A DNA stretch of 62,590 nucleotides, from contig NZ_JZRB01000032.1 of assembly GCF_000964085.1 (NCBI RefSeq), forward strand, positions 1-62,590, read 5' to 3'. A program made the translations under genes and the position numbers. The notes under the pieces were generated by a model, which worked only from the letters and a program-made list of their open reading frames with translations, made no database searches and had not been told where the DNA came from. Of the stretch, positions 22,654 through 62,590 are shown piece after piece; position 1 is the stretch's first letter, and each line of letters opens with the position of its first letter. Origin of the DNA: Luteibacter yeojuensis. GTDB taxonomy: Bacteria > Pseudomonadota > Gammaproteobacteria > Xanthomonadales > Rhodanobacteraceae.

Positions 22654-22676
22654 GCCTTGGGGCCAGGGGAGGGAAC

Positions 22677-34082: not shown

Positions 34083-34087
34083 ATGGG

Positions 34088-36157: not shown

Positions 36158-36177
36158 GCGATTTTCTCCTTGCAGTG

Positions 36178-42036: not shown

Positions 42037-42921
42037 ATGCCTCGCCGCAGCCCACCCGCCGACCGCATCCAACACGCGGACATCCGCGAATACCTCACCC
42101 GCCGCACCAAGGATTACAGTGCCCGCGGGAAGATCCGTAACAACAAGGGCGCCCTCGTCCGCGCCACCGCGTTCCTCTCGCCGCGCGCGCAGCGCACGCC
42201 GAGCCGCATCATGTTCGCCGATGGCCTCACGTTCGATGGCGTCACGGCGGCGTCGCTTGCGGATATGCCGCGCGAGGAACTGGTGGGCTACATCCCGAAC
42301 TTCCAGAACATCCGGGCCGGCGAGGAGGTGCGTCTCTTCTGCACCCACGATGCGGTCGATACCGTGGTGGAGGTGAGCCGCTTCGTCGTCACGAAGGAGG
42401 CGCTGGTGCTGGTTGTCCGCTTCCCGCGCTCGGTGCTCGAGGCGTTCGGCATGAGCGGCTATATCGATTTCCGCTATGAGCTGCGCAATGCGGTGGAGGA
42501 GTTCACCATCGTGTCGCCTTCGTCGACGTTGTACGTGAACCTGCATGCCACGGCGCGGTACCTGCCGCCGCCCCTGGTGCAGGGCCTGGTCGATGGCGTG
42601 GTGGTGCCGGGCAGCTTTTCCGATGGCCTGGTGGTGGACATCCCGGCGACGGAGCCTGCCAGCAAGGGCGGCAATGAGATCCGTGTCCGCATCGGCGAGG
42701 CGTGTTTCGAGCCGGTCATCCTCGGCAAGCTCGAGGCATCGCTCGACCCGATGATGCGCTTCATCCTCGCCCGCGAGGATATCCTGCGCATGGCGTCGTT
42801 CCACGCCTCGCAGCTCTTCACGGTGGAGGCGTCTTATTCGGTGGAGCAATACGGCGCGCTCAGCGTGTCGACCCCCACGCTGGTGGTGTTCGACCTGCGC
42901 ACGCCGCCGGCGAACGACTAG
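42037..42921 (+). CDS. Ig-like module protein 5
   Basis: A 294-residue member of the family, high in GC like the core genome. After a basic N-terminus, module one contains YIPNFQNIRAGEEVRLFC and closes IDFRYELRNAVEEF; module two contains VVDIPATEPASKGGNEIRVRIG and closes FTVEASYSVEQYGALS. No signal peptide. GAAGGAG precedes ATG 42037. Its stop overlaps the stop of the convergent next gene by 4 bp (CTAG). Confidence 0.75.
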   Translation: MPRRSPPADRIQHADIREYLTRRTKDYSARGKIRNNKGALVRATAFLSPRAQRTPSRIMFADGLTFDGVTAASLADMPREELVGYIPNFQNIRAGEEVRLFCTHDAVDTVVEVSRFVVTKEALVLVVRFPRSVLEAFGMSGYIDFRYELRNAVEEFTIVSPSSTLYVNLHATARYLPPPLVQGLVDGVVVPGSFSDGLVVDIPATEPASKGGNEIRVRIGEACFEPVILGKLEASLDPMMRFILAREDILRMASFHASQLFTVEASYSVEQYGALSVSTPTLVVFDLRTPPAND

Positions 42922-44123
42922 GAGGCGGCGGCGACGGGTGTTCCTGGTGCGGCGGCCGCACCCGTGGCATGCACCGGCGGCGCCAGTTCGAAGTCGCGGT
43001 AGAGGTTGGGGTTGCCGGTCATGCCGGCCTCGGCGGCCTTGGCGATGTTGTACATTTCGCGGGCGGTCACGTAGTGCAGCACGTGGTCCTTGCCGTCGTT
43101 GTAGCGTTGCTCGAGGTAATCGTGCATGTCGTCGACGGGCTTGCCCAGCAGCGTATCCATGTCGCGTTCCTGGGTGCCGTGGGTATGGATCTTGATGAAA
43201 ATCCACTCCGGCCGGCCCTCGACGTGGATGCCGGTGTCCACCCATTGGTCCACGCGGCTGCGGGTGGGCGGGCAACCCTGGCGAATGTCGGAGTTCTCGA
43301 TGCGCGGGATGATGCCGAAGCGCCGCTGTTTCCAGTTCAGGCCGAGCACGCCCTGGATGATCAGCAGGTCGCCGCTGGGTTTGCCTCCCACGCGCATGGG
43401 TACACCCGTGTCGTGGCCCTTGGGCTTGCCGCAGGCGTCGGCCGCGTAATAGATGCTGTTCGACATCCGCGTCTGGGTATCGCTGGGCGCGGAGGGCAGG
43501 GTGAAGTCGGCGTAGCAGCCGAGCTCGCGCAGCAGCACCAGCTCGTTGTTGATGCCGCACCAGCGGCCATCGGGCCGGCTGTTGGCGAGACACCAGTTGC
43601 CGTGGATGAAGGCGAATTTGAGTTGCCCGGTCACCGGGTCACGTGGAAGGGCACCGTGGCGCTGATGAAGTAGCCTGTTGAACCGATCCAGGGTGGCGAC
43701 GAAATTTTCGGGGGTATCGTCGTCGTGGTGGAGGTGGATCTCGATCTCACCAAAGCCGTCGGCACACAGGTGGGCTAGCTTGTCCAGGTGCTCTTCCACG
43801 TACTCTTCTTCGGGGTAGAAGAAGCAATGTTGCGGCGGCCGCCCGTCGGCATCGCGGTGCCGACTAGCCATGGCGCGGTACTCCGTGCACCAGCGGTCCA
43901 CGCGGTGCCGCTGGCGGTCCATGTCCACGCGGCCCCAGTTGGGCTCGAAGTGGTCCACGAAGCAGAACATGATGTGTTTCGTACCTTCTACCCTGGGCGC
44001 CTTGCGCCGGGTGAGGTAGCCCCACAGCCAGTACTGCATGTTGCGGGCGCGGATGGCGAAGGCCACGGCCGCGGCGAACAGGGCGAGGGCGGCGCAGGCC
44101 GCGACGAGGAGGGGAGCGATCAT
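42918..44123 (-). CDS. Deacetylase/hydrolase-like membrane-anchored protein of EPS operon
   Basis: A 401-residue protein with one N-terminal membrane helix (about 4-24), then a polysaccharide-deacetylase/GH-type barrel. Candidate metal or catalytic parts are FCFVDHFEPNW (Asp/His near the first strand), EIHLHHDDDTPENF and FAFIHGNWCLANSRPDGRWCG, and IKIHTHGTQ near the end. It is more distant than the two NodB-type proteins in the same operon. The last gene of the minus-strand operon, it overlaps the preceding glycosyltransferase by ATGA. An Ala/Gly/Pro tail ends the protein. Confidence 0.78.
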   Translation of the reverse strand: MIAPLLVAACAALALFAAAVAFAIRARNMQYWLWGYLTRRKAPRVEGTKHIMFCFVDHFEPNWGRVDMDRQRHRVDRWCTEYRAMASRHRDADGRPPQHCFFYPEEEYVEEHLDKLAHLCADGFGEIEIHLHHDDDTPENFVATLDRFNRLLHQRHGALPRDPVTGQLKFAFIHGNWCLANSRPDGRWCGINNELVLLRELGCYADFTLPSAPSDTQTRMSNSIYYAADACGKPKGHDTGVPMRVGGKPSGDLLIIQGVLGLNWKQRRFGIIPRIENSDIRQGCPPTRSRVDQWVDTGIHVEGRPEWIFIKIHTHGTQERDMDTLLGKPVDDMHDYLEQRYNDGKDHVLHYVTAREMYNIAKAAEAGMTGNPNLYRDFELAPPVHATGAAAAPGTPVAAAS

Positions 44124-45364
44124 GCGGTGGCTCCCGCGGGTACCAGGGTAAGGAGTTGTTCGGCGTTGTTGCGCCACTGGCGCTCGCTGGCGATGTAGTC
44201 GCGGGCGGCGGCGCCGACGCGGCGCTGTTCGTCGGCCTCACTGGCCAGGGCCAGCACGCGCTCGACGCATGCCGCGGCGTCGCCGCGCGGAAACAGCCAG
44301 CCGGTGCGGCCATCGGCGATCACTTCGGCCACGGGGGCGTAGTCGGGCGCCACCACGGCCACGCCCATGCCCATGAGTTCGAACAGCTTCATGGGCGAGC
44401 CGTAGTGGTTGGAGTTGGGCAGCACGGCGTAATCCATGCAGGCGATCCAGCTGGCCACCTCGTCGTGGGGCACGCGGCCGGGCAGCAGCACACGCTCGCT
44501 GAGGCCGCGCGCGGCCACCAGGTCGCGAACCGCCGGCAGGGTCTTGCCATCGCCCACGAACACCAGCGCAAGGCCCGGGGCTTGGTCGAGGCGGTTGGCG
44601 ATCGCTTCGACGAACGCGTCCACGCCATGCCAGTGCGCGAACACGCCGATATGCCCGCACACCGTGCGCCCGGTGAGGCCGCGGGCGGCGCGCAGGGCGT
44701 CGCGGTCGTATTTCGCCGGGTCGAAAGCGGGCAGGTCCACCGCGTTCGGCGAGATCACCGATGGTGCGATGGCGCCATAGGCCTCGACGGCCTTGTCGCG
44801 GAAGTAGGTGGAAATGAAGACCAGCCCCGTGGCCCGGCGGAAGCACCAGCGCTCCACTCGCTGCGCGAGGCGCTTCATCTTCAGCGGCCGCACGCGTTCG
44901 ACGAGGGCGGAGTCGTTGATCTCCAGCACGATGGGGATGCCGCGCCGCCGCGCCATCCACACGGTGGCGAAGAGGAACAGCGAATAGCGCTCGTACACCA
45001 GCCGCGGCGGCGTCGCGCGCCACGCGCGCCCCATCCGGACGAAGGTGACGAGGTTGTAAAGCAACTCGAACATCTCGAAGACCACGCCCGGCAGCTTCGT
45101 CACCATCGCCGCGAGCCCTCGCTGGCCCGTGCCGCCGCTAGCCACCGGCGCCGCAGGCGCGGCCGCGACCGAGGCCGCACCGGTAGCCGTACCCGCACCC
45201 ACACCCGAACCCGCCGGCTTGGCATGCCCATGCTCAGGGTCGGCCCCCGGGAACGACATCACCGACACATCGTGGCCCAGTTCGCGCAAGGCATTGACGA
45301 TGCCGCGGATATGCACGCCTTCGACGTGCTGGCCCCGGGTGCGGTGGTGGTAGAGGATGTTCAC
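44120..45364 (-). CDS. Glycosyltransferase family 4 protein
   Basis: A 414-residue cytosolic GT-B glycosyltransferase. The N-terminal acceptor domain starts VNILYHHRTRGQHVEGVHIRG. The donor domain has GHIGVFAHWHG, LVFVGDGKTLPAVRD, LPGRVPHDEVASWIACMDYAVLPN and the E-x7-E-like GSPMKLFELMGMGVAVVAPD. A low-complexity Ala/Gly/Pro insert of about 35 residues follows residue 48 and breaks the N-terminal domain, which is unusual. The GTG start overlaps the preceding stop (GTGA). Confidence 0.9.
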   Translation of the reverse strand: MNILYHHRTRGQHVEGVHIRGIVNALRELGHDVSVMSFPGADPEHGHAKPAGSGVGAGTATGAASVAAAPAAPVASGGTGQRGLAAMVTKLPGVVFEMFELLYNLVTFVRMGRAWRATPPRLVYERYSLFLFATVWMARRRGIPIVLEINDSALVERVRPLKMKRLAQRVERWCFRRATGLVFISTYFRDKAVEAYGAIAPSVISPNAVDLPAFDPAKYDRDALRAARGLTGRTVCGHIGVFAHWHGVDAFVEAIANRLDQAPGLALVFVGDGKTLPAVRDLVAARGLSERVLLPGRVPHDEVASWIACMDYAVLPNSNHYGSPMKLFELMGMGVAVVAPDYAPVAEVIADGRTGWLFPRGDAAACVERVLALASEADEQRRVGAAARDYIASERQWRNNAEQLLTLVPAGATA

Positions 45365-45999
45365 GAATGGCTTCCCGGCAGGGCATCGAAGCGCATGCCG
45401 GCGGCGATCCATTCCGGCAGGATGGCATCGAGCGCTTCGGCGGCCTTGTCGCTGTCGTCGTGCATCAGCACGATGTCGCCCGGCGCGGGCGGGTCGTTGC
45501 GCAGGCGGTTGATGAGCCAGTCGGTGGGCTGGTCCTGGTAGTCCAGGCTGTCGTACGACCAGTAGACGAAGCTGCGCTTGCGCCGTGCGAAATGCATGAG
45601 CAGCTGTGCGCCCACGTAGCCGTGCGGCGGCCGCATGCGGTGGTGCGGCCGGTCGTCGAACAGGCGCAGCAGGGCGTCGGTGCGGTACACCTCGTCGAGC
45701 TGCTTGCGCAGGTTCATGTTGCGGAACGACCAGTGGCTGTACGAATGGTTGCCGATCATGTGGCCATCGGCCACGATGCGCGCCACGATCTCGGGGTACT
45801 GCTCGATCTTCTCGCCCACCAGGAAGAAGCTGGCCTTCACGCCATGGCGGGCCAGCACGTCCAGCAGCCTGGGCGTGTGTGCGGGCTCCGGGCCGTCATC
45901 GAAGCTGAGGTAGCAGGTGGCGTCCTTCTTCGCCCGCGTCATCAGCAGGTGGTCGGGGAGCAGGCCCAGCAGTTCGTGTTTCTTCGGTCGGCGGATCAT
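45361..45999 (-). CDS. Polysaccharide deacetylase (NodB type)
   Basis: A 212-residue compact NodB-fold enzyme of the carbohydrate esterase 4 family. Motif 1 is LSFDDGPEP (catalytic base and metal Asp), motif 2 NHSYSHW (metal His pair), motif 3 RMRPPHGYVG, then the C-terminal IVLMHDD. No signal peptide, so it would act in the cytosol, perhaps on a lipid-linked sugar. It overlaps both neighbours by 4 bp. Confidence 0.92.
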   Translation of the reverse strand: MIRRPKKHELLGLLPDHLLMTRAKKDATCYLSFDDGPEPAHTPRLLDVLARHGVKASFFLVGEKIEQYPEIVARIVADGHMIGNHSYSHWSFRNMNLRKQLDEVYRTDALLRLFDDRPHHRMRPPHGYVGAQLLMHFARRKRSFVYWSYDSLDYQDQPTDWLINRLRNDPPAPGDIVLMHDDSDKAAEALDAILPEWIAAGMRFDALPGSHS

Positions 46000-47168
46000 G
46001 CATTCATACTCACGTGGGCCGGCGCGCCGGCGGCGACGCGCCCGAGCATCCGCTCGAGCCGGTCGATGTTGTCTTCCCAGCGGAAGCTGGTGGCATGGGC
46101 GGCGATGGCCTCCGGGTCCACGTGGCGGCCCAGCATCTCGGCCAGCGCCGGCGCCAGCAGCTCGGGGTGGTGGGCGGGTACCAGCGTGCCGGCATACGCC
46201 GGCACCACCTCGGGGATACCGCCTACGGCGGTGGCCACCACCGGCGTGCCGCAGGCCATGGCTTCCAGCACCACGTTGGGCACGCCCTCGTTGTGGCTGG
46301 GCAGGCAGAGCACGTCGGCGGCGCGGAACCAGTCCGGCAGCGAGGCATGCGGCGCCGAGCCCATGAAATGCACCGCGGGCGCGCAGCACAGCGAGGCGGC
46401 GCGGTTCTCCAGCGTGGCGCTGTCGGGGCCGTCGCCGACGAAGTAAAGCCGGGCATCCGGCCGCTGCTTGGCCAGCAACGGGAACGCTTCGATCAGGTCC
46501 ATGCAGCCCTTGGTGACCTTCAGGTTGCCGGCGTACAGCACCACCGGCGCATCCAGCGGCAAGCCCAGCCGCTCGCGCGCCGCACGGCGGTCGCCGCGGC
46601 GGAACAGCTTGCCGTCCACGCCGTTGTAGACCGTCTCCACCTGGTCGGGCCGGGCGCCGAGCTCCACGGCCTTCGCGGCCAGGGCCTTGCTCACCGCCAG
46701 CACGGCACCGGCGGAGCGCAGCGCATGGCGGATCTGCGGGCGCCGCAGGGGCGAGGCGGCCTGCACGTTGAGGTCGCTGCCGTGCACCTTCACCACGTAC
46801 GGTACGCCCAGCAGGTGGGCGATCCACGCGGCGGCGGCTGCATCGGGGAACGCCCAGCTGGCCAGGATCACGTCGTAGCGCGCCAGGCGCAGCGCGCGCC
46901 CGCGCTGCCACATCACGCACGCGGCGTAGCACAGCGCATTGAGGAAGCGGCCGATGCCCGGTGGGTGGTAGAAGGTGAAATGGTCGCGGTTCACGTGGGG
47001 CACGTGCACCTGCCCGCGCGCGCCGGCCATCTTTTCGCGAAAGTCGACCGCGGTGAGCACGTCCACCTCGTGGCGCTCGCCCAGCCGCTCGAACTGCTGG
47101 CGGTTGAAGGTGCCGCGCCGCGGGTCCCACGGCGTGGGGAACAGGTTGGTAAGCACGAGGATCTTCAC
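45996..47168 (-). CDS. Glycosyltransferase family 4 protein
   Basis: A 390-residue GT-B enzyme. It starts VKILVLTNLFPTPWDPRRGTFNRQQ, has VKVHGSDLNVQAASP and VYNGVDGKLF, then the donor-site blocks VVLYAGNLKVTKGCMDLIEAF, LYFVGDGPD and the E-x7-E motif EGVPNVVLEAMACGTPVVAT. It adds one sugar of the repeat unit; which one is unknown. GTG start overlapping the previous stop. Confidence 0.92.
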   Translation of the reverse strand: MKILVLTNLFPTPWDPRRGTFNRQQFERLGERHEVDVLTAVDFREKMAGARGQVHVPHVNRDHFTFYHPPGIGRFLNALCYAACVMWQRGRALRLARYDVILASWAFPDAAAAAWIAHLLGVPYVVKVHGSDLNVQAASPLRRPQIRHALRSAGAVLAVSKALAAKAVELGARPDQVETVYNGVDGKLFRRGDRRAARERLGLPLDAPVVLYAGNLKVTKGCMDLIEAFPLLAKQRPDARLYFVGDGPDSATLENRAASLCCAPAVHFMGSAPHASLPDWFRAADVLCLPSHNEGVPNVVLEAMACGTPVVATAVGGIPEVVPAYAGTLVPAHHPELLAPALAEMLGRHVDPEAIAAHATSFRWEDNIDRLERMLGRVAAGAPAHVSMNA

Positions 47169-48283
47169 GGCAGCGCCTCCACGTGCCCGAAGTACAGGCG
47201 GGTGTAGCGGGCCGCCATGGCCTGCAGCGAGCCGTGCTGCTCCACCCACGAGCGGGCCGCGCGGCCGAACGCGCTGGCCTGCTGCGAGGCGTGCAGCATC
47301 TCCACCATGGCGTCGGCCAGCGCCGGTGCATCGCAGGGCGGCACCAGGCGGCCCGTGGCGCGGTCGCGGACGATCTCGGCGTTGCCACCCACGTCGGTGG
47401 CCACGATGGGCAGGCCGGCGGCGCAGGCCTCCAGCAAGGCCATGGAATAGCCCTCGGTGACCGAGGACAACACGAAGAGGTCCAGCCCCTGTAGCAACTC
47501 GTGCACGTCGTCGCGGTCGCCGAGGAAATGCACGCAGCCGGCGATGCCTTCGTCGAAGGCGCACGCGCGCAGCGTTTCGCGCAGCTCGCCATCGCCGATC
47601 AGCACCAGCACGGTATCGCGGCGCAGGTGGCGCACGGCGCGGAACGCGCGGATCAGGCTGGCCTGGTCCTTCGCCCAGTTCAGGCGGCCCACGGTGCCTA
47701 TGATGCGCGTGCGCGAGGGCACGTTGATGAGCCGGGCCAGGCGCTCGTGCATGGCGTCGTTCGCCACCTCGAACCCGTCGAGGCGGATGCCGTTGGGCAC
47801 GACGCAGCACTTCCCGGCGGGGAACATGCCCCGGCCCACGGCATCGCGGCGCGCCGCTTCGCACACGGCCACCACGGTATCGGTGGCCGACATGGCGCGG
47901 CGGAACAGCCACTCGCGGCGGCCTGGCTTGCGCGTGGCGCCCATGCCGTGCCGCGTGTTCACCACCTGGCGGATGCCCATGCCGGCGCTGGCCAGCACGG
48001 CCTGGTAGTGCGCCACGGCGTTATGCGTGTGCAGTACCTCGGTGCGGTGCTCGGCGATGAACTTGCGGGCCAGGCCCACGGCGCGCAGGTCGAAACCCGT
48101 ACGCTTGTCGCAGGCGCGCACCGGGATGCCCTTGATCTCCAGCTCGGTGGCCATCGCGCCACGCTCGAACAGGCAGACCACCTGCACCTTGTGGCCCTCG
48201 CGGTGCTGCTGGGTCACCAGGTCGATGACCATGCGCTCCAGGCCGCCCCGGTTCAGGTTTTCGACGACATGGGTGATGTTCAC
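47165..48283 (-). CDS. Glycosyltransferase family 4 protein, XrtA-cluster type
   Basis: A 372-residue GT-B enzyme beginning with the typical NITHVVENLNRGGLERMV, with VLHTHNAVAHYQAVLA, VPNGIRLDGF, IIGTVGRLNWAKDQASLIRAF, VLIGDGEL and the E-x7-E block EGYSMALLEACAAGLPIVAT. It resembles the glycosyltransferases found with exosortase-A polysaccharide genes. GTG start with 4-bp overlap on both sides. Confidence 0.92.
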   Translation of the reverse strand: MNITHVVENLNRGGLERMVIDLVTQQHREGHKVQVVCLFERGAMATELEIKGIPVRACDKRTGFDLRAVGLARKFIAEHRTEVLHTHNAVAHYQAVLASAGMGIRQVVNTRHGMGATRKPGRREWLFRRAMSATDTVVAVCEAARRDAVGRGMFPAGKCCVVPNGIRLDGFEVANDAMHERLARLINVPSRTRIIGTVGRLNWAKDQASLIRAFRAVRHLRRDTVLVLIGDGELRETLRACAFDEGIAGCVHFLGDRDDVHELLQGLDLFVLSSVTEGYSMALLEACAAGLPIVATDVGGNAEIVRDRATGRLVPPCDAPALADAMVEMLHASQQASAFGRAARSWVEQHGSLQAMAARYTRLYFGHVEALP

Positions 48284-49635
48284 GGCGTGAGCTCCGAGAC
48301 GGTGACGCGCAGCTTGCCGCTACGGGTCAGCGGGATATCGTCGACGAAATGGCAATGCAGTTCCGCGCTGTCGCCAAGCACCTTGGCCACCTCGCGCTGG
48401 ATATAGGAAAGTGACGCATCGTCGAAGCCCTGGCCGCGCACGATCGAGAGGTCCAGCCGGTCGAGCGTGCGCTGCACCAGCTGGAAGCGCGCCAGGCCCG
48501 GCACGTCCTTCAGCATGTGCGGGAAGAATTCGCCCGGCAGCACGTGGCCGGCGCGCGTGCGGATGGCGTCAAGCTTGCGCCCGTCGACGCTGGCCAGCAG
48601 CGGCAGCCCACGCCCGCAGGCGCACTGGCCGTGGTAATGCGTGGCCATGTCGCCGTTCACGTAGCGGATGAAGGGCATGCCGTAGTTGAAGAGATCGGTG
48701 ATGCACACCTCGCCGCTGCCGTGCGTCGTGGGCGTGCCGGCGGCGTCGAGCGTCTCCACCATCAGGTGGTCCGCGTTCACGTGCAGGCCATCGCGGTGCT
48801 CGCATTCCGAGGCGATGAGCATGAACTCGCGGCAGCCGTAGGTGTTGAACACGGGGGCGCCGAACGCCTGCTCGATCAGCTCGCGCTGGAACGGGTGCAG
48901 GGCTTCGGCGGCGCCGATGATCGAGGCCGGGCGCGCCACGCGCCGCCCGGTGGCGAGGAGGAACTGCGCCAGCCGCACCAGCGGGCCCACGTAGGCGACG
49001 ATCACCTCGGGCTTGTACGCATCGATGGCATCGGCGTACGACGCCAGGTTCGCCTCGGTCATGGCGAAGCTGTTGAGCTGCTTGCGGGCGAAGACGGCGT
49101 TGTAGAGCTGGTCCTTCAGCTGGTGCGCCCGGGTGGGCTCGCCCACCGTGCCGCCCCACAGGAACAGCGTGCGCCGGCCCATGCGCGAGCCGGCCCAGCC
49201 GTAGCCGCGCCACATCACGGCTACGCGCCGGTCGTTGCTCTCGCGCGTGTAGCCAAAACGCAGGGGCTCGCCGGTGGAGCCACCGGTGGCCTTGTAGGCC
49301 AGGCCGTCGCGCAGCGAGGTGGCCTTCAGCCGGTCGCCGTGTTCGCGGATGTCGGCCTTGGTGAGCACCGGCAGCAACGCCACGTCGGCCGGGGTGCGGA
49401 TATCGGCCGGCGACAGCCCCATCTGCGCCCAGCGGTCGCGGTAGAACGGCACCTCGCGCTGGCACCAGTCGAGCAGCCGCTTCAGCCGGCTGAACTGCAG
49501 GTCGCGGATCTGCTCCGCGGGGAGCCACTGGGCCTTCGCGTACTCACGCACATGGCGCGGCGTGCCGCGGCGGCGCAGGCCGCCTTCGTAGGCCGGCCAC
49601 AGCACGTGGCGGAACAGGGGCTCGTACAGGCTCAT
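48280..49635 (-). CDS. CapK/PaaK-like adenylate-forming enzyme
   Basis: A 451-residue member of the phenylacetate-CoA ligase family, in the branch found in capsule clusters (CapK). Parts: KATGGSTGEPLRFGYTRE (ATP-binding P-loop-like motif), GAAEALHPFQRELIEQAFGAPVFNTYGCREFMLIASECEH (A5-like region), RYVNGDMATHYHGQCACGRGLPLL, and LTRSGKLRVTV near the C-terminus with the conserved lysine. It may activate an acyl or amino acid as adenylate for attachment to the glycan or, speculatively, for loading a carrier domain. It overlaps neighbours by 4 bp. Confidence 0.9.
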   Translation of the reverse strand: MSLYEPLFRHVLWPAYEGGLRRRGTPRHVREYAKAQWLPAEQIRDLQFSRLKRLLDWCQREVPFYRDRWAQMGLSPADIRTPADVALLPVLTKADIREHGDRLKATSLRDGLAYKATGGSTGEPLRFGYTRESNDRRVAVMWRGYGWAGSRMGRRTLFLWGGTVGEPTRAHQLKDQLYNAVFARKQLNSFAMTEANLASYADAIDAYKPEVIVAYVGPLVRLAQFLLATGRRVARPASIIGAAEALHPFQRELIEQAFGAPVFNTYGCREFMLIASECEHRDGLHVNADHLMVETLDAAGTPTTHGSGEVCITDLFNYGMPFIRYVNGDMATHYHGQCACGRGLPLLASVDGRKLDAIRTRAGHVLPGEFFPHMLKDVPGLARFQLVQRTLDRLDLSIVRGQGFDDASLSYIQREVAKVLGDSAELHCHFVDDIPLTRSGKLRVTVSELTP

Positions 49636-50891
49636 TGGGTGCGCAGCAGCACGGCCACGAGGACGAACAGGCCGGCGATGCTGCACATGGCCGCCGGCAC
49701 CCAGCGCCAGCCATCGCGGGCGAAGCGGAAGGTGGGCAGCTCGGGCCAGCGGCGGCGGGCGCCGACGTAATGCCCAGCCACCACGGCGGTGATCAGGTAC
49801 AGCACCACCATGTACGTGCGGCTCAGGAAGAACGCGCAGGCGAACAGGCCGCACAGCGACAGCAACAGCGTCAGCGCCAGCTGTTTCTCCATGGCCCACT
49901 CTGCCTCCCGCCCCGGTTCGTTGGCGGCAGTATGCGGATGGCGGACGATCGTCAACATCATCCAGAAGCCGTAGCCTACAAAGGCTAGCCATAGGATGAA
50001 GCCCAGGAAGCCGGTCTCGGCCAGTGCCAGCACGAACGAGTTATGCGCGGTGAGCTCGTTGTACTCGGTGAAGTTGCCCGGGCCCACGCCCAGCAGGGGG
50101 CTGTCGCGGAACATCTCCAGGCCGGCGTACCAGGCGTCGACGCGGCCCGCGGCCGATTCCTCGCCCGCGTCCAGCTCTTCCATGCGCGAGGACAGCACCT
50201 TCAGGGCGGCCAGGCCGATGATGCCCAGCGTGCCGGCCACCACGATGCCCTTGCGGTACCAGATGTAGCAGCCCGCGGTCACCAGCACGGCCAGCATGGC
50301 GCCGCGCGAGTTGGTCAGGTAGGTGCCGTACAGCAGCAGCACCGCGACGGCCAGCCACAGCCAGCGGCCGCGTGCCCCCTTGCGGCCCAGGAACACGGCC
50401 ATGGGCAGCGCGGCGGCGAACAACAGGCCCAGGTCGTTCGGGTCGTTGAAGATGCCGACGTACTGGATGCGGTTGCCCTCGCCGATGGGGATGCCCGTCC
50501 AGCCCATGCCCGTCTGGGCCTGGCCCACGCCGTGCAGGGCCAGCACCGCGGAGCACGCCACGATGACCCCCATGGCCACGCGCACCCGGCGCTGCGTAGT
50601 GCAGCAGGCGCCGAGCACGAAGAAGGCGATGACCACCGGGCCGAAATGCGCCAGCTCGTCGAGCGCGCCGCCGGTCCAGCCGTTGCTCACCTGCGACACC
50701 ATCAGGATCAGCAGGAAGCAGGGCAGGATGATGAACTGCGGGGCTTCGAACGTCTTGTCGCGCGAGGCAAGCCACGCCAGGAAGGCGAGGCCCAGCACCA
50801 CCGGCAGGATGGGCACCAGGTCCAGCCCGGGCACGTAATCCTGCGGGCGGATGATGGTGAGGACCACATACAGGAGGATCAGGGGGAACAT
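49632..50891 (-). CDS. O-antigen ligase/polymerase family membrane protein (Wzy-like)
   Basis: A 419-residue membrane protein with about 10-12 helices, of the O-antigen polymerase/ligase family. The large periplasmic loop contains the signature-like NSRGAMLAVLV, GRVDAWYAGLEMFRDSPLLGVGPGNF and AHNSFVLALAETGFLGF (the H-N-S/GxGxxxF pattern). It would polymerise the flipped repeat units. GCAGGAG precedes ATG 50891, which overlaps the upstream deacetylase gene by 13 bp. Confidence 0.92.
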   Translation of the reverse strand: MFPLILLYVVLTIIRPQDYVPGLDLVPILPVVLGLAFLAWLASRDKTFEAPQFIILPCFLLILMVSQVSNGWTGGALDELAHFGPVVIAFFVLGACCTTQRRVRVAMGVIVACSAVLALHGVGQAQTGMGWTGIPIGEGNRIQYVGIFNDPNDLGLLFAAALPMAVFLGRKGARGRWLWLAVAVLLLYGTYLTNSRGAMLAVLVTAGCYIWYRKGIVVAGTLGIIGLAALKVLSSRMEELDAGEESAAGRVDAWYAGLEMFRDSPLLGVGPGNFTEYNELTAHNSFVLALAETGFLGFILWLAFVGYGFWMMLTIVRHPHTAANEPGREAEWAMEKQLALTLLLSLCGLFACAFFLSRTYMVVLYLITAVVAGHYVGARRRWPELPTFRFARDGWRWVPAAMCSIAGLFVLVAVLLRTQ

Positions 50892-53112: not shown

Positions 53113-53142
53113 GACGTCTTCCCCCTTCCTGCGACGTCGCGC

Positions 53143-56100: not shown

Positions 56101-59100
56101 GTCGCGGATGGCGGTGCGCATGCTGGGCTGGCGCTGGATCAGGGCCTGGAAGGCCATGTCGAAGGCGTGCTCGTCCATCGTGCCGCGCAGGCGGTGGGCC
56201 GACGGCGCGTTATAGGTGACGCGGCCCGGGTTCAGGCGCTCGAGCGCCCACAGGCGGCGCTGCATCAGTGACAGCGGCGCCTGCACCTGGGCCTGCTCGT
56301 CGCGGTGGATGATCGGCTCGGCCGGCGGCGTGTTGCCCGCGGCCACCTGCGAACCGATGGCCGCGGCCAGCTGCTCGATGGTGGGGGCGTCGAACAGCGT
56401 GCGGAACGACAGGGTGATGCCGAACTCGCGGTTGAGGCGCGCGGTGAGCTGGGCGGCCAGCAGCGAGTGCCCACCCAGGGCGAAGAAGTCGTCGCGCACG
56501 TCGAGATCCGGCAGGCACAGCGTCGCTTCCATCGCCGCGGCCACGCGGCGTTCATCCTCGTTGCGCGGCGCCACGCGCTCGCCGGTTTCCGCCAGCGAGT
56601 GCGCCATGGGCGCCGGCAGCGCCTTGCGATCGGTCTTGCCATTGGGCAGCAGCGGGATCGCGTCGAGCAGCATGATGTGCTGCGGCACCATGTAATCCGG
56701 CAGGCGGGCGCGGGTGGCGCCGCGCAGCATGTCCTCGTCCAGCGGCATGCCCTCGCGCGCCACCACGTAGGCGACCAGGCGCACATCGCCGGGGCGGTCC
56801 TCGCGGGCGATGACGACGGCGCGCGCCACGGCAGGCACGTCGGCGAGCACGCATTCGATTTCACCCGGCTCGATGCGGTAGCCGCGCACCTTCACCTGGA
56901 AATCGAGGCGGCCCAGGTGCTCCAGCAGGCCGTTGGCCAGCCAGCGGCCGCGGTCGCCGGTCCTGTACATGCGCGAGTCGGGCGTCTCGGACCAGGGATC
57001 GGGCACGAAGCGCTCGGCGGTGAGGTCGGGGCGTTCGAGGTAGCCGAGCGTCACGCCCGCGCCACCGATGTGGATCTCGCCCGGCACGCCGAGCGGGCAG
57101 TGGTTGCCCTGCTCGTCGAGGATGTGCACCGTGGTGTTGGCGATGGGGCGGCCGATGTAGATGCCTTCGCGCGGGTCGGAGACGCGCCAGTAGGTGGAAT
57201 ACACCGTGGTTTCGGTCGGGCCGTAACCGTTCCACACCTCGCCGCAGCGATCGAGCAGGGCTTCGGCCAGGTCCACCGGCAGCGGCTCGCCGCCGGAGAC
57301 GGCGCGGAACGCCGGGCGGCCATGCCAGCCCGCGTCCACGAGCAGGCGCCAGCCCGCTGGCGTGGCCTGCATCATCGTGGCGTCCACATCCTCGATGAGC
57401 CGGCGCAGCTGCGCACCGTCGCGCACGTCGTCGCGGCCGGCCACCACGATCTCGGCGCCGCTGGTGAGCGGCAGCAGCAGTTCCATGAACGCGATATCGA
57501 AGCTCAGCGTCGTCACCGCCACCAGGCGGTCGTCCGGCGCGATGCCGGGCACGCGCTGCATGCTGGTGAGGAAGTTGGCGGCCGCGCGATGCGGCACGCG
57601 CACGCCCTTGGGGCGGCCCGTGGAGCCCGAGGTGAAGATCACATAGGCGACGGAATCGGGGGTCGCCGCCTTGCGATTACGCTCCGGACGGTCGACGGAG
57701 GCGTACTTTACCTCGTCGCTGTTGAGGGCAAGGATGCGCTTCGCGTCGAAGTCGAAGGAAAGCGGCGCGTCGTCATCCACCACGAGGGCGGCGAGCGCGG
57801 CGTCTTCGGCCATGAAGGCGAGGCGATCAGCCGGGAACGCCGGGTCGAGCGGCACGTAGCCGGCGCCGCTCTTCAGCACGCCAAGTACGGCGGCCACCAT
57901 GTCGAGGCCGCGCGCCAGCGAGATGCCCACCAGCATGCCGTGGCCGATGCCGCGCTCGCGCAGGCTGTTGGCGATGCGGTTGGCGCGCGATTCCAGCGCG
58001 GCGTAGGTGAGCGCGCGCTCGCCGTAACGCACGGCGGCGCGCTCGGGCGCGCGGTCCACCTGCTGTTCGAAAAATTCGTGCGCCAGGCGCAGCTCCGGGA
58101 ACGGCGTGGGTGCCGGCTGCAGCGCAGCCAGTTCACGGTACACCGCGTCGGAGACGACGGGCAGCTTCGCCACCGCCTCGGCCGGGGCCAGCGCCGCTTC
58201 GCGCAGCAGCATGGCGTAGGCATCGAGCCAGCCCTGGATCGTCGCACCCTCGAACAGATCGGCGTTGTACTGGCATTCCAGGCGCAGGGCGCCGTCGACC
58301 TGCACCGCGTTGATGAACAGCTCGAAGTTCTCGTACTCGCGCGGGATGGCGTCGACGGTGAAGCGCAGGCCCGGGAAGGTCACCGTGCTTTCATCGAGCA
58401 CCGCGTCGAGGTTGAACAGCACGCTGACCAGCGGCAGGCGCGAGGGGTCGCGCGTCATCGACAGCTTCGGCAGCAGGCTGCCCAGGGTGTAGCGCTGGTG
58501 TTCGAACGCGTCGAGCAGGTCGTTGCGGACGGCGCCCAGCACGGCGTTGAAGGCGGCGCCGTCGTCGATGCGCGCGCGCAGCGGCAGCACGTTCACGGCA
58601 TGGCCCACCAGCGTATCCAGGCCTTCGGCGGCCTGGCCGGCGGTGGGGATGCCGATGACGACATCGTCCTGGCCCGCCACGCGGCGCAGCAGCAGGGCGA
58701 AGCCGGCCAGCAGCGTGGCGTACAGGCTGGCGCCGTGCGAGGCGCCCAGGCGCTTGATGGCCGCCACCTCGGTGGCGTCCAGGGTGCGGTCTTCGCGCCG
58801 TGAGGTGAACGTACGGCGGCGCGGACGCGAGCGGTCGGTGGGGAGGTCCAGTGCTGGAGCCGTGCCGGCAAAGCGGGCCAGCCAGTACTGTTCATCGTCC
58901 CGTGCCGTTCCCGTGCCGGCGTGCGTGGCCTCGGCCAACGCGAAGTTCGAGAACGCGTGCGCTGGGGCCGGGCCGGGGCCCTGGCCGGTGCGCTGCGCGT
59001 AAAGGGCGGCGAGGTCGCGGACGATCACGCCGAACGACCAGCCGTCGCACACGATGTGGTGCGCGGCGATGGTCAGGATGTGGTGCTCGGGGCCCAGGCG

Positions 59101-59529
59101 GAACAGTTCCGCGCGCACCAGCGGGCCATGTTCCAGGTCGAACGGCGTGGTGACGATGCGCGAATAGGCCGCCATCAGCCGGGCATCGCTCTCGAACGGG
59201 GCCAGCAGGCCCAGGTCGTGGGTGGCGATGGGCAGCACGGTGTGTTCGGCGACGAAGAGGCTTCCGCCATCGCCGCTGAAGGTGGCACGCAAGGCCTCGT
59301 GGCGGTCGACCACCGCCTGCAGCGCGGCCTCGAGGGCCGGTACGTCGAGCAAGCCCCGCAGGGTGACCGCGATCGCCTCGTTGTACGCCAGCGAGGCTTC
59401 CGGCTCCAGCCGGGATGCCAGCCACACCTCGCGTTGCGGCTCCGTCGTCGGCACGAGGTGCGAAACCGCCGCACCGGCGAACGGGTCATAGTCGACCGCC
59501 GTGGCGGCGGCCAGCTCTTGGGGCGTCAT
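53143..59529 (-). CDS. Non-ribosomal peptide synthetase, C-A-PCP-C-A(degenerate)-PCP
   Basis: A 2128-residue NRPS. C1 (about 25-455) has HHIVCDGWSFG near 158. A1 (about 480-990) has TSGSTGRPKGV near 636 and NGYGPTETT near 769. Its specificity positions, read by eye from SFDIAFME, MMQATPAG, VSGGE and GYGPTETTVY, are D-I-M-Q-V-G-V-Y, nearest in pattern to glycine-type codes but not decisive. PCP1 GGHSLL lies near 1018; C2 (about 1085-1530) has HHIIWDGWSFD near 1220. A second A-like region (about 1535-2040) is degenerate: HVPGPDGRAVG replaces the A3 loop, LFGDAMTAP replaces YGPTE, and TGEPD replaces the A10 lysine motif. PCP2 GGHSLL lies near 2070. No thioesterase or reductase follows. ATG overlaps the stop of the PKS-aminotransferase gene. 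Confidence 0.95.
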   Translation of the reverse strand: MTPQELAAATAVDYDPFAGAAVSHLVPTTEPQREVWLASRLEPEASLAYNEAIAVTLRGLLDVPALEAALQAVVDRHEALRATFSGDGGSLFVAEHTVLPIATHDLGLLAPFESDARLMAAYSRIVTTPFDLEHGPLVRAELFRLGPEHHILTIAAHHIVCDGWSFGVIVRDLAALYAQRTGQGPGPAPAHAFSNFALAEATHAGTGTARDDEQYWLARFAGTAPALDLPTDRSRPRRRTFTSRREDRTLDATEVAAIKRLGASHGASLYATLLAGFALLLRRVAGQDDVVIGIPTAGQAAEGLDTLVGHAVNVLPLRARIDDGAAFNAVLGAVRNDLLDAFEHQRYTLGSLLPKLSMTRDPSRLPLVSVLFNLDAVLDESTVTFPGLRFTVDAIPREYENFELFINAVQVDGALRLECQYNADLFEGATIQGWLDAYAMLLREAALAPAEAVAKLPVVSDAVYRELAALQPAPTPFPELRLAHEFFEQQVDRAPERAAVRYGERALTYAALESRANRIANSLRERGIGHGMLVGISLARGLDMVAAVLGVLKSGAGYVPLDPAFPADRLAFMAEDAALAALVVDDDAPLSFDFDAKRILALNSDEVKYASVDRPERNRKAATPDSVAYVIFTSGSTGRPKGVRVPHRAAANFLTSMQRVPGIAPDDRLVAVTTLSFDIAFMELLLPLTSGAEIVVAGRDDVRDGAQLRRLIEDVDATMMQATPAGWRLLVDAGWHGRPAFRAVSGGEPLPVDLAEALLDRCGEVWNGYGPTETTVYSTYWRVSDPREGIYIGRPIANTTVHILDEQGNHCPLGVPGEIHIGGAGVTLGYLERPDLTAERFVPDPWSETPDSRMYRTGDRGRWLANGLLEHLGRLDFQVKVRGYRIEPGEIECVLADVPAVARAVVIAREDRPGDVRLVAYVVAREGMPLDEDMLRGATRARLPDYMVPQHIMLLDAIPLLPNGKTDRKALPAPMAHSLAETGERVAPRNEDERRVAAAMEATLCLPDLDVRDDFFALGGHSLLAAQLTARLNREFGITLSFRTLFDAPTIEQLAAAIGSQVAAGNTPPAEPIIHRDEQAQVQAPLSLMQRRLWALERLNPGRVTYNAPSAHRLRGTMDEHAFDMAFQALIQRQPSMRTAIRDMGADVMQVVQAQLTYPLFPAEDLSHLEPTAREEKLAARLRELTDTPFDLGTAPLFSARVFKLSATEHAMFFMPHHIIWDGWSFDIFYNELSALYRAFAAGQPSPLAPLPVTYGDYAEWHAQWLDSPAFQTQLSFWRDRLAQVGDVRALPTDYPRRPGMSGLGRTEWIHVSREHTDAMHDVARQADATLNMTLLALYFAMLSSSAGQRDLVVGTPVRARNQAEVESVMGYFNNLLPLHVHVDPGLSFLEFVRHVKRTAIDAFGCPDVPLEYLQRELKVGHGAGATLYQALFSFQDARQRAVDWGGLDHEQILLFQSGATEDLGMWFLESQRGMVGGVTYNADLLQSSTAKLMRERYLDMMHVVSLNPHIAVGQLTAASTLERDRMRTWNAGCGGSPLPADLFAMVDAQAKESPDATAVMHGVRKQGYAQLVAHALRMATLLRERGAANGSVVGLCVEPGVDRLAGLLAISLTGGTALLLDRNDPAARLRDIVTDGRMTVLIGDSALEASLDWPRACALWLDAHHAELMAVEVDASAFGSRACADAPAIAFHVPGPDGRAVGASLSHAAIAGMVHGLTDGLAIDAGQCLSGDAMPADPMSVIEPLLALSTGATWRVPAPHDLANGELPDLDCFIASPETWNTLFEKGWAGDGQLRAAMLGGTPTRETASRIADATAGLWTLFGDAMTAPAATCGRVERAADAMHEGRPIGGNYIWILDNDGEPCPIGATGEIALAGEALSQRFGTRATADHAPGAEHLLRTGYRGRWLAEGQVQVLDREDRRIRRHGLDIEPAAIEAVLLAQAGVVRALAVPRTNRLGEQRIDAYAVGAPGFQLDPDSLRAALAGQLPAWSMPAHLMLLDAMPLLATGEPDVDGLPLPEERAAANDAGMVSVEPTTDSELLLASVWHELLGMTRIRTSDNFFDVGGHSLLAVDMAQRVQKLTGIQMNLLDIANGTLGTLAADLALATPAGPPPAKRGGLFGRLFGRG

Positions 59530-62500
59530 GCGGTAACCCTCAGGTACTTGCCCGGCGCATCCGGGTTGGGAACGAACCACGCGGGCTGGCCGTCCGGATC
59601 CTTGCCAAGCCGCGCACCGGGCACGGGCGGGCTGTTGGGATCGAAGGCGGTGGCGTCGCGTTGCTGGCGCGGCAGGAATTCCGCTTCCTGCATTTCAAGG
59701 ATCGATTCACGGAACGCGTTGGCGATGGCGGCGAAATCTTCCTCGCGGTGCGCCGTGGTGAAGAAGCAGGGGAAGTTGTCCAGGATGTGGATGCCGCGGC
59801 TGCGCATCATCGCGAACAGCAGCTCCTGCATCGGGTGGTCTTCGGTGAACGTGGTCTTCCACACCGAGGCGAAGTGCACGACCTTCACCGGCGCGCCGAC
59901 GCTGGCGCAGAAGGCGTTGAGGTCCTCGGCCATGGCGGTGACCTTCGCGTTCAGCGTGGCCTGTAGGTCGGCGCCCTGCTGCTGCAGGTGGGTAAGCACC
60001 GCGTGCGCCGCGGCCAGGGCCAGCGGGTGGCGCACGAAGGTGCCGGCGAAGTAGGTGACGCCCACCGTCGGCACCGAGGCGTCGCCGAACTGCCAGTCGC
60101 CGCCGTCCAGCGCATCCATGAAGCGGCGCTTGCCGGCGATGACGCCGATGGGGAAGCCGCCGCCGACGACCTTGCCGTAGCTGGCCATGTCCGCGTCGAT
60201 GCCGAGCACGTGCTGCGCGCCGCGCGGGTGCGAGCGGAAGCCGGTGACCACTTCGTCGAAGATGAGCAGCGAGCCGCTCTCCTCGGTGATGGCGCGCACT
60301 TCCTGCAGGAATTCGATGGGCTTGAAATCGGGACGGCGGCTCTGCACCGGTTCCACCAGCACCGCTGCGATCTCGTGCGCGCGTTCGCGGATGATCTGCA
60401 GCGACTCGGGCGTGCCGTAGTCGAGCACCAGCACGTGCTCGGCGGTGTTGCGCAGGATGCCCGGCGCGGCTGGGATCGACTTCAGCTTCTTGGTGCCGCG
60501 CACGATCACTTCGTCGAAGATGCCGTGGTACGAGCCGGTGAAGATCACCAGGGTGTCGCGGCCAGTGACCGTGCGGGCCACGCGCACGCAGCCCATCACC
60601 GCCTCGGAGCCGGTGTTGCACAGCGCGGCGCGGTCGAAGCCGGTCAGGTCGCAGACCTGCTTCGCCACCGTGCCGGCGAGCGGGTGCTGCGGGCCGATCT
60701 CGTAGCCGGCATCGAGCTGTGCGCGCACGGCATCGAGCACGAAATCAGGCTGCCAGCCGAACAGGTTCATGCCGAAGCCGTTGAGGGCATCGATGTACTC
60801 GTTGCCGTCGAGGTCCCACACCTTGGGGCCCTTCGAGCGCTCGACCACGATCTGGTAGATGATTTCCTTCACCAGCGGGCGGAAGCCGTTCACCACGCGC
60901 GGGTCGGCCAGGTGGCCGCGGTGTTCGACGGTATAGGCCTTCGAAGCCTTGGTGCGCTCGATGTAGCGGCGCATGAAGGCGTCAAGGCGGGCGCGCTGGC
61001 GGCCGCTGAGCTCGGTGCCGCCCGTGTGGATGCGGGCGATGGCGCCGAAGGCTTTCTTGACGTCGTAGGTGGTGTGGGCCAGGGCGGCTTCTTCGGCGTC
61101 ATTCGCTGCGTTGGCCGTCGGCTGGGCCGACGGATCGCGCACGGAGTGCGCTCCTACAGCGGCGGTGGCCGGTGCGGCGGTGGCCGGAGCGGCGGTGGCC
61201 GGTGCGGCGGCAGTGGTAGCCGTGGCTGCCGCCGCCGGGATGGGGTTCGCCGCCGGGGCGGCAGCGCCCGACAGCAACGCCAGCTGATCCCGCATGATCT
61301 GCATTTGCTGCGCGATCACGTCCTGGATCAAGCCACCACCCGCCGCTATCGGGGCGACGGGTGCTGCCACCATGGCGGGCGCGGTAGGGACCACTGCCGC
61401 CACGGGTGCCGCCGGCGTGGTATCCGCCGGCAGGAGACGATCGATGTGCGAGGCGAGGCGCTCGAACGAGGAGCAGCCATCCATCAGCTCGCGAAAAGTG
61501 ATTTTCAGCGCGTAAGTCTTCTGCAACTGCAAGGCCACCTGGGTCAGCGACAGCGAATCCAGGCCCAGCTCCACGAAGTTCGCGGCGGGGTCGATGTTAT
61601 CCAGCTCCGTGCCCGAGACATCCTCGAACAGGGCGACAAGCTCGGTGACAAGGCGCTGCGGGCGGGCGGAAGCGACAGGCGTAGGCATGGAAGACTCCAC
61701 AAAGTGCTGCAAGGTATGTGTCATGTCGGCGGCGCCGCCCCCTGTAGGAGCGCACTCCGTGCGCGATCCGCCGACAACGTCGGCGGCAACAAGCGAAAGA
61801 GGCAGCCCCGCGGCAATCGCCGTAACAGAAGCTGCGCCACGCGCTTCAACCCAATGCCGCTTCCGCTCAAACGGATACGTCGGCAAGCGAACGCGGCGGC
61901 GGTTATCGCGATGGTCGAAGGCATCGACATCGACGCCCACGCCAGCAGCCCACAGGGCCCCGGCGGCGTTAAGCAGCGCAGCGCGCTCTTCGCCAGCGTT
62001 GTCACCCAGCGAAGCCATGAAAGTGCGCCCGCGCGCCTGCGCATGCTGGCGGCCCAGTTGCGTGAGGCTGCTGCGCGGGCCCACTTCGACGAATGCGTGC
62101 GTCGCGGTGTCGAGCGCGTGCAGCAGTGCCGGCGAAAAGCGCACGGTGTCGCGCAGGTGGTGGGTCCAGTAATCGGCCGAGGTGGCTTCATCCGCCGTGA
62201 GCGGCAGCCCCGTGGCCGTGGAGATGATCGGCAGGCGCGGGGCCTGCAGGGCGATGCCCTGCACCTCGGCGCGGAAGGTGGCCAGCACCGGCTCCATCAT
62301 CGCGGAGTGGAATGCGTGCGAGGTATGCAGCAGGCGGCAGGCGATGCCGTCGGCATCCAGCGCGCGGCGGAAGGCCTCGACCTCGTCATGCGTGCCGGAC
62401 GCGACCGTTGCATTCGGTGCGTTCTCGGCCGCGAGAGACAAAGCACCCGGGAGCCGCGCCCGCAATTCGGCGGCCCCCAGGCGAACGGAAAGCATGGCAC

Positions 62501-62590
62501 CGGAAGGCAGCGCCTGCATGAGGCGGCCGCGGCGGGCGACGAGGCGGGCGGCCGCGGCCAGCGGCATGACACCCGCCAGCACCGCCGCGG
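59526..62590 (-). CDS. Polyketide synthase, 3' part: AT-ACP-aminotransferase (partial)
   Basis: At least 1018 residues; the 5' part is beyond the window. The visible start is the second half of an acyltransferase domain with SHAFHSAMMEP; HAFH marks malonyl-CoA specificity in this family. An ACP follows with ELGLDSLS, its serine near 61552. An Ala/Pro-rich linker leads to a class III PLP-dependent aminotransferase (about 60-61 kb) with NTGSEAVMGCVRVAR, LLIFDEVVTGFRSHPRG and the PLP-lysine block MASYGKVVGGGFPIGV. This AT-ACP-AMT order is that of mycosubtilin/iturin-type synthases, where the AMT converts a beta-keto thioester to a beta-amine. Two 27-base REP copies lie inside the coding frame around the ACP. 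It overlaps the NRPS gene by ATGA. Confidence 0.94.
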   Translation of the reverse strand, partial: AAVLAGVMPLAAAARLVARRGRLMQALPSGAMLSVRLGAAELRARLPGALSLAAENAPNATVASGTHDEVEAFRRALDADGIACRLLHTSHAFHSAMMEPVLATFRAEVQGIALQAPRLPIISTATGLPLTADEATSADYWTHHLRDTVRFSPALLHALDTATHAFVEVGPRSSLTQLGRQHAQARGRTFMASLGDNAGEERAALLNAAGALWAAGVGVDVDAFDHRDNRRRVRLPTYPFERKRHWVEARGAASVTAIAAGLPLSLVAADVVGGSRTECAPTGGGAADMTHTLQHFVESSMPTPVASARPQRLVTELVALFEDVSGTELDNIDPAANFVELGLDSLSLTQVALQLQKTYALKITFRELMDGCSSFERLASHIDRLLPADTTPAAPVAAVVPTAPAMVAAPVAPIAAGGGLIQDVIAQQMQIMRDQLALLSGAAAPAANPIPAAAATATTAAAPATAAPATAAPATAAVGAHSVRDPSAQPTANAANDAEEAALAHTTYDVKKAFGAIARIHTGGTELSGRQRARLDAFMRRYIERTKASKAYTVEHRGHLADPRVVNGFRPLVKEIIYQIVVERSKGPKVWDLDGNEYIDALNGFGMNLFGWQPDFVLDAVRAQLDAGYEIGPQHPLAGTVAKQVCDLTGFDRAALCNTGSEAVMGCVRVARTVTGRDTLVIFTGSYHGIFDEVIVRGTKKLKSIPAAPGILRNTAEHVLVLDYGTPESLQIIRERAHEIAAVLVEPVQSRRPDFKPIEFLQEVRAITEESGSLLIFDEVVTGFRSHPRGAQHVLGIDADMASYGKVVGGGFPIGVIAGKRRFMDALDGGDWQFGDASVPTVGVTYFAGTFVRHPLALAAAHAVLTHLQQQGADLQATLNAKVTAMAEDLNAFCASVGAPVKVVHFASVWKTTFTEDHPMQELLFAMMRSRGIHILDNFPCFFTTAHREEDFAAIANAFRESILEMQEAEFLPRQQRDATAFDPNSPPVPGARLGKDPDGQPAWFVPNPDAPGKYLRVTA
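61131..61157 (-). repeat. REP unit inside PKS coding sequence (copy 1)
   Basis: CGGATCGCGCACGGAGTGCG continuing to CTCCTAC is a GTAGGAGC-headed REP with stem GCAC/GTGC, and the exact reverse complement of 61744-61770. It is translated in frame as VGAHSVRDP in the linker between ACP and aminotransferase. Confidence 0.85.
61744..61770 (+). repeat. REP unit inside PKS coding sequence (copy 2)
   Basis: GTAGGAGCGCACTCCGTGCG continuing to CGATCCG. It is the perfect 27-base inverted partner of 61131-61157, translated in frame as GSRTECAPT in the linker between AT and ACP. Confidence 0.85.

Follow-up and report, generated by a model that had tools for sequence, protein, structure and literature searches.

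A conserved operon of PKS-NRPS and glycan genes in a putative XrtA-like exopolysaccharide locus of Luteibacter yeojuensis

Results

Organisation of the locus

The window analysed here is the whole of contig NZ_JZRB01000032.1 (62,590 bases; contig C71 of genome G000 in our numbering) of Luteibacter yeojuensis, and it carries an operon in which genes for a polyketide synthase (PKS) and a nonribosomal peptide synthetase (NRPS) run directly into genes for glycan synthesis (Table 1). A preliminary description of this DNA had reported eleven co-oriented minus-strand genes leading from the end of the PKS through an NRPS of 2128 residues to the glycan genes, with junctions that overlap by 4-13 bp apart from a single 30-bp gap after the NRPS, and all of this was confirmed (the 2128 residues being counted from the ATG). 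The overlaps are of 4 bp, except for 13 bp before the Wzy gene and 7 bp before that of deacetylase 1 (4 bp if the following start codon is used), and the operon contains two deacetylase genes and not one.

The PKS gene is truncated by the end of the window. The extension to the right called for in the preliminary description was carried out with contig C129, whose end shares 27 bases with that of the window (a contig overlap) and encodes, according to Pfam, adenylation (A), peptidyl carrier (PCP) and ketosynthase (KS) domains and the first part of the acyltransferase (AT) domain. A relative assembled as a single contig (G112) has an unbroken PKS open reading frame (ORF) of 2241 aa in place of the split gene, in an identical gene order. 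C129 also carries a TIGR03013 initiating sugar transferase (560.9 bits, cut-off 393.35), a phosphopantetheinyl transferase and a small protein with a secretion-signal-like start. The locus is moreover wider than the eleven genes, as a second arm on the plus strand, at 19.7-32 kb, contains XrtA-type export genes, the Wzx gene and the genes of two hydrolases.

Table 1. Genes of the two arms of the locus in the window (ACP, acyl carrier protein; AMT, aminotransferase; C, condensation domain; T, thiolation domain; A*, degenerate A domain; GT2 and GT4, glycosyltransferase families)
Feature	Coordinates	Strand	Basis or remark
PKS C-terminal part, AT (second part)-ACP-AMT	59526..62590	-	Pfam; stop at 59526; rest on C129
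NRPS, C-A-T-C-A*-T, 2128 aa, no thioesterase	53143..59529	-	Pfam, domain survey
GT2 glycosyltransferase, adjoining the NRPS	51982..53112	-	Pfam
Polysaccharide deacetylase 1 (Polysacc_deac_1)	50879..51988	-	Pfam
Wzy_C / O-antigen-ligase-like protein (Wzy)	49632..50891	-	Nearest NCBIfam TIGR03097 (XrtA O-ligase), below cut-off
CapK/PaaK-like AMP-forming ligase (CapK)	48280..49635	-	PaaK-type NCBIfam matches below cut-off; family survey
GT4 glycosyltransferase	47165..48283	-	TIGR03088-like, below cut-off
GT4 glycosyltransferase	45996..47168	-	
Polysaccharide deacetylase 2 (Polysacc_deac_1)	45361..45999	-	
GT4 glycosyltransferase	44120..45364	-	TIGR04063-like, below cut-off
401-aa protein, no family assigned	42918..44123	-	No Pfam/NCBIfam match; orthologs in L095-L098
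Polysaccharide export protein (XrtA/PEP-CTERM type)	19707..20339	+	TIGR03027, 207.3 bits, cut-off 180
Chain-length determinant (XrtA type)	20350..21882	+	TIGR03007, 386.8 bits, cut-off 278.85
Tyrosine autokinase	21895..22653	+	TIGR03018-like, below cut-off
Outer-membrane protein	22650..24044	+	TIGR03016-like, below cut-off
Hydrolase 2, alpha/beta fold, Arg at nucleophile position	24050..24826	+	TIGR03101-like, below cut-off
Hydrolase 1, alpha/beta fold, Cys at nucleophile position	24823..25659	+	TIGR03100-like, below cut-off
GalE, UDP-glucose 4-epimerase	25656..26657	+	429.7 bits, cut-off 262.3
Predicted protein, signal-like start, between GalE and Wzx	26654..28348	+	
Wzx-type flippase	28345..29892	+	Polysacc_synt (matched on longer ORF)
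GNAT-fold Acetyltransf_6 protein	29889..31022	+	Pfam; only 15/117 family genomes
Methyltransferase	31188..32072	+	TIGR04325, 215.7 bits, cut-off 80

Conservation of the linkage

The family was surveyed in a sample of 117 genomes. CapK and the AMT domain occur together in 37 of them, in 35 of these 37 on one contig and 8-37 kb apart, so that the genes form one conserved operon and not a chance arrangement. The AMT was found in 55 genomes (E up to 1e-100; identities of 43-100%), CapK in 41 and Wzy in 43, one of the latter being a weak match; 39 of the 43 Wzy genomes have the AMT as well (Fisher test, 9e-14, not corrected for phylogeny). Orthologs of the GT2 gene with at least 56% identity are present in 29 genomes, and all 29 lie 4.5-11.2 kb from the AMT. 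The PKS-AMT/NRPS/GT2 order, for which a search in related genomes had been suggested, is the same in G112. The AMT-to-GT2 distance is 4.5 kb in four genomes of one genus (G003, G029, G045 and G058), whose AMT ORFs are of 2731-3280 aa, which fits a predicted single NRPS module. The 401-aa gene accompanies the glycan operon even in genomes without the PKS; the structural model of its product was too poor for use (predicted local distance difference test, pLDDT, 53), and no significant structural match was found with it.

A set of 73 AMT loci was also compared (at least one genome, L018/L106, being counted twice), and 52 of them have one or more glycan markers. The markers were labelled from picked ORFs and single-link clusters, with the result that some genes were missed or mislabelled. 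On a quick NRPS tree (67 rows, L061, L083, L086, L105 and L110 having been dropped; LG+G4; long branches flagged), the exopolysaccharide context, a label set by hand, changes nine times. Such shifts of context might indicate that the product is mainly a cell-bound conjugate other than polysaccharide (with lipid, protein or peptidoglycan), the operon context being historical, but the repeated association with polysaccharide genes across different families, in those 52 of 73 loci, makes this very improbable.

XrtA-like character of the polysaccharide genes

The Wzx/Wzy-type polysaccharide locus of the preliminary description was borne out. Its set comprises a flippase, a polymerase-like protein, an initiating transferase and export and chain-length proteins, the Wzy call resting on Wzy_C, a domain common to ligases. 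As the export protein, the chain-length determinant and the TIGR03013 transferase all score over their cut-offs and occur with Wzx, the best reading of these matches is an XrtA-like Wzx/Wzy exopolysaccharide locus that lacks an exosortase and has a small PKS-NRPS built in. The likeness to XrtA/PEP-CTERM loci extends to relatives of TIGR03018, TIGR03016, the two hydrolases, the GT4 proteins and the O-ligase, all below cut-off here; hydrolase 1 reached 71.8 bits against TIGR03100 (cut-off 168.45) and hydrolase 2 82.9 bits against TIGR03101 (cut-off 202.75).

Unlike those loci, the present one has a PKS-NRPS, no exosortase and no XrtA acyl ligase over cut-off. The exosortase (EpsH/XrtA) family PF09721 has no match in G000 or in eight genomes of the same genus, and is present in 16 of the 117 family genomes (E up to 0.001). 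None of the 117 has an acyl ligase over the TIGR03098 cut-off, and the best match in G000 (E 2.6e-69) resembles the background of general ligases. Because these two defining features, the exosortase and the acyl ligase over cut-off, fail, the locus is not filed as an XrtA member and is best called a new variant of XrtA-like exopolysaccharide locus. Exosortase-linked protein sorting was also considered and rejected, since none of the nine genomes of the genus, its own included, has an exosortase. In some other loci the TIGR04325 methyltransferase has relatives a few kb or less from the PKS-NRPS.

Domains of the PKS and NRPS and the predicted product

By Pfam, the complete PKS reads A-PCP-KS-AT-ACP-AMT, with no ketoreductase, dehydratase or thioesterase domain reported. 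The closest PDB chain to the AMT is the mycosubtilin synthase AMT (6kfm, E 1.7e-111; best other protein, E 2.2e-48), which bears out the earlier assignment of AT-ACP-AMT to the iturin/mycosubtilin type. The order AT-ACP-AMT is likewise that of MycA, which begins with an acyl ligase. Here, in contrast, an amino-acid A domain takes the place of the acyl ligase, the NRPS has one or two modules and no thioesterase, and the setting is a polysaccharide operon. Elsewhere in the genome (G000:C76:8666-8798) a 133-base stretch is 80% identical to part of the AMT and possibly belongs to another class III aminotransferase.

The loading A domain of the PKS best matches amino-acid A domains, fatty-acyl ligases not having been compared directly. 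With the A domains aligned and the nine code positions read by motif anchors, its code is DALWLGGTF, and most Rhodanobacteraceae loci have DA[LF]WLGGTF or one close to it. We take DALWLGGTF to be a Val-type code, and those of the loading domains in other loci to be Pro-, Thr- or Ser-like. The first A domain of the NRPS most often reads DILQLG[LM]VW, which is presumably Gly-like, with presumed Ser- and Thr-like codes in other loci; the Luteibacter version, DI[M]Q[VI]GGVY, may be a Gly-like variant, and this is said with less confidence. The second NRPS A domain, where intact, again most often has DILQLG[LM]VW. Read from these codes, the product is likely to be a beta,gamma-diamino-acyl-Gly(-Gly), with one or two glycines attached to a beta,gamma-diamino acid.

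As the PKS starts with an amino-acid-type, Val-like A domain, no fatty chain is expected. A fatty product was therefore rejected, and the "lipo" part of the lipopeptidyl-glycan proposed in the preliminary description is unsupported. An acyl-peptide could still act as a cap, primer or lipid-linked anchor of the polymer (for instance on an undecaprenyl-linked repeat unit) and not as a repeated side group, and the CapK/PaaK-like AMP ligase and the O-antigen-ligase-like protein within the operon would suit such a role; however, the loading domain is not lipid-type in look, and CapK and Wzy are not specific to the PKS-NRPS because both are kept in genomes without it. We regard this role as improbable.

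Decay of the last A domain

The NRPS has no terminal thioesterase and ends after its second T domain; its last A domain has lost the catalytic Lys motif, as judged by eye. In a set of 72 NRPS, which includes two genomes twice (L018/L105 and L046/L110) and the unrelated synthetases L083 and L086, 27 have a last A domain with an intact core motif, in 22 that motif is degenerate or was not found, and 23 lack the domain. The last C domain carries HHxxxDG in 68 of the 72, or in 70 if the looser matches of L046 and L110 are counted, and the Ser motif of the carrier was found in 67. When the window is compared with five Luteibacter copies, gaps being scored as differences, identity is 36-64% in the last A domain, whereas it is 84-91% in the first A domain of the NRPS and 78-83% in its second C domain. 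On the NRPS tree the state of the last A domain changes six times, five of the changes being forced by starred branches. The motifs thus indicate that the last A domain has decayed repeatedly while the C and T domains were kept. It was also considered whether CapK might serve specifically to load the empty T domain, which is unlikely because CapK is kept in genomes without the PKS-NRPS.

The hydrolase pair

The profiles of hydrolases 1 and 2 each match 54 of the 117 family genomes (at most 22 candidates scored per genome). Hydrolase 1 coincides with the AMT in 50 genomes (54 and 55 positives; Fisher test, 3.5e-22, not corrected for phylogeny), the two sharing a contig in 43 of these and lying no more than 60 kb apart in 41. 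It is present in all 37 genomes with both AMT and CapK, in 13 of the 18 with the AMT only and in none of the four with CapK only. Hydrolase 1 without the AMT was seen in G042, G061, G083 and G111, always as a weak match (E 1e-18 to 1e-23, against 1e-49 or better in the remaining genomes). In loci from Pseudoxanthomonas (L022), Lysobacter (L040), Variovorax (L049) and Burkholderiales (L067) the hydrolases follow the NRPS directly or one gene later.

The nucleophile position of hydrolase 1 is Cys in all of 27 sequences (the window included; L046 and L110 being the same gene twice), with D-H in 26 of them. In hydrolase 2 it is Arg in 25 of 26 and Gln in one, a count from which two members, 495 and 580 aa long, were left out. 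Plain hydrolases less often have Cys as the nucleophile. Judged by these residues, hydrolase 1 would be a Cys-type acyl transferase and hydrolase 2 its dead partner. To our knowledge, no function has been assigned to the "exosortase-associated hydrolases". The GNAT-fold protein was rejected as a universal peptidyl transferase, being found in only 15 of 117 genomes, although all 15 have the AMT.

Nine loci (L030, L031, L064, L065 and L068 from Corallococcus; L049, L056, L059 and L060 from Variovorax and relatives) have the PKS-NRPS, or an NRPS part, without detected glycan neighbours, and the alpha/beta hydrolases are labelled in seven of the nine.

Neighbouring genes

Autotransporters and large proteins of unassigned family lie between the two polysaccharide arms (32092-40852 of the window) and between the gene u510 and the PKS (L009:5170-15158); some of these large proteins are distant paralogs with 27-28% identity. 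The gene u510 (L009:4125-4850, on C129) encodes the small protein with a secretion-signal-like start and is near the PKS or the sugar transferase in relatives (one cluster, 20 loci). Neither Pfam nor NCBIfam gives a family over cut-off for its product, whose structural model (pLDDT 86.6, all beta) has no PDB match at E up to 0.001. Many relatives have a further gene upstream of the PKS (L014:1834-2748; cluster in 21 loci), not labelled in the Luteibacter loci, of which one scanned member is Cupin_8/JmjC-like; it is perhaps a hydroxylase of the peptide. Another gene that recurs close to the PKS-NRPS cassette (L099:18348-19061; cluster in 21 loci) has a DnaJ domain in one scanned member.

Discussion

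The assembly line and the glycan genes are tied together in a conserved operon, and of the glycan link proposed in the preliminary description this part stands, with a functional tie plausible, whereas the lipid part is unsupported. The sequences themselves show gene content and order, domain layout, co-occurrence and the residues at the nucleophile position of the hydrolases. For the substrates, the transfer and the acceptor we infer the following steps. The A domain of the PKS would load Val, KS-AT-ACP would add malonate and the AMT would convert the beta-ketone to an amine, giving the beta,gamma-diamino acid. The NRPS would then add Gly, and its last C-T pair would either add a second Gly, for whose loading the remaining A domain would serve, or simply pass the chain on. 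Because there is no thioesterase, release through hydrolase 1 is proposed: the last T domain would pass the chain to the conserved Cys of hydrolase 1, which would have hydrolase 2 as its catalytically dead partner, and the chain would then be handed either to a hydroxyl or to a hexosamine whose amino group the deacetylases have freed. The decorated glycan would be flipped, polymerised and exported by Wzx, Wzy and the TIGR03007 and TIGR03027 proteins, and the outcome would be a polysaccharide that bears a short cationic peptide as its decoration. That the peptide decorates the polysaccharide has, in our judgement, about even chances.

Several observations weigh against such a decoration. No enzyme has been shown to join peptide and sugar, and the conserved linkage alone also fits co-regulation. 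Hydrolase 1 is absent from five of the 55 AMT genomes, namely G024, with an AMT 76% identical, and G028, G036, G040 and G114, with AMTs of 43-49% identity. The preliminary description had named glycan operons of close relatives that lack the PKS-NRPS but give an unchanged polymer as a refutation of the glycan link, and the answer is mixed: four of the 41 CapK genomes (G026, G099, G004 and G030) have neither AMT nor hydrolase 1 at the thresholds used, and keep the deacetylases, Wzy, CapK, a GT4, the 401-aa gene and a Wzx-like match. Three genomes of genus g5 (G059, G086 and G110) have 32-36 kb between the PKS-NRPS and the glycan operon, and also carry a TIGR03098-like ligase. Among the 73 AMT loci, 21 have no exopolysaccharide marker; four of these are contigs of less than 10 kb, and others are Variovorax, Xenophilus and Corallococcus loci and slices limited to 20 kb. 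Glycan genes were not detected in the fetched flanks of L049, L056, L059 and L060 (Variovorax/Xenophilus-type) or of L030, L065 and L068 (Corallococcus), and the five scanned genes of L049 encode an RND pump with its HlyD partner and PP-loop, DUF4136 and radical-SAM proteins.

These Variovorax/Xenophilus-type and Corallococcus loci, mostly with hydrolases, would also be expected if the PKS-NRPS made a free small peptide (a signal, metal binder or antimicrobial) merely co-expressed with the polysaccharide, for example held in its matrix, with hydrolase 1 as the release thioesterase. The four glycan operons that lack the PKS-NRPS agree with this too, as does the fact that the PKS-NRPS is tracked more closely by hydrolase 1 than by the glycan genes. 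On the other side, the genes are tightly coupled by 4-bp overlaps, the GT2 neighbour is conserved in 29 of 29 genomes, and no dedicated peptide exporter is among the genes annotated here; the hydrolases resemble families of XrtA exopolysaccharide loci and sit in the polysaccharide arm, and a Cys nucleophile would be less typical of a plain hydrolase. We consider a free peptide a serious possibility, at somewhat less than even chances.

In three of the four genomes with the PKS-less operon, a ligase resembling TIGR03098 (360-392 bits, below cut-off) was found at a distance of 14.9-15.9 kb from CapK. In the two inspected, G099 and G030, it lies near the operon, and in G099 it stands beside a stand-alone ACP, followed by an asparagine-synthase-type amidotransferase gene, as though these genomes relied on a simpler acyl module bound to a carrier. 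This pair of stand-alone ACP and ligase, a minimal carrier module, was seen at L112:8188-9979 (G099) and, near a PKS-NRPS, at L113:3708-5536 (G059). A simple swap of the ligase module for the PKS-NRPS was rejected, because the three g5 genomes hold both. More tentatively, and with doubt, peptide decoration might be generalised to a widespread class of exopolysaccharides in which a beta,gamma-diamino-acyl-glycyl peptide made by a PKS-NRPS is moved to amino sugars by a Cys-type alpha/beta transferase and its dead partner, the same pair being a general acyl-transfer device of XrtA-type loci that is fed there by simple ligase-ACP modules.

NRPS and glycosyltransferase genes also stand together in the mycobacterial glycopeptidolipid loci; there, a lipopeptide carries a few sugars, whereas the short peptide predicted here would be carried by the polymer of a Wzx/Wzy locus. 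O-antigens and capsules are known to be decorated with aminoacyl groups on their amino sugars, and we know of none with a beta-amino peptide made by a PKS-NRPS. No description of a PKS-NRPS within a glycan operon was found in the open-access literature, outside which lie bioRxiv preprints and most subscription papers, and the passages of PMC4687298 found by word search do not describe it.

Should the peptide prove to be free, the last A domain would still be of interest, since its repeated loss beside retained C and T domains offers a useful natural experiment in how carriers are loaded. Should it instead sit on the polymer, the peptide chemistry of assembly lines would extend to the bacterial matrix, where a charged peptide with a beta-amino acid would alter adhesion, metal binding and resistance to attack. 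The "exosortase-associated hydrolases" would then have a testable role, and so would those PKS-NRPS clusters of Xanthomonadales that are otherwise listed as cryptic small-molecule clusters.

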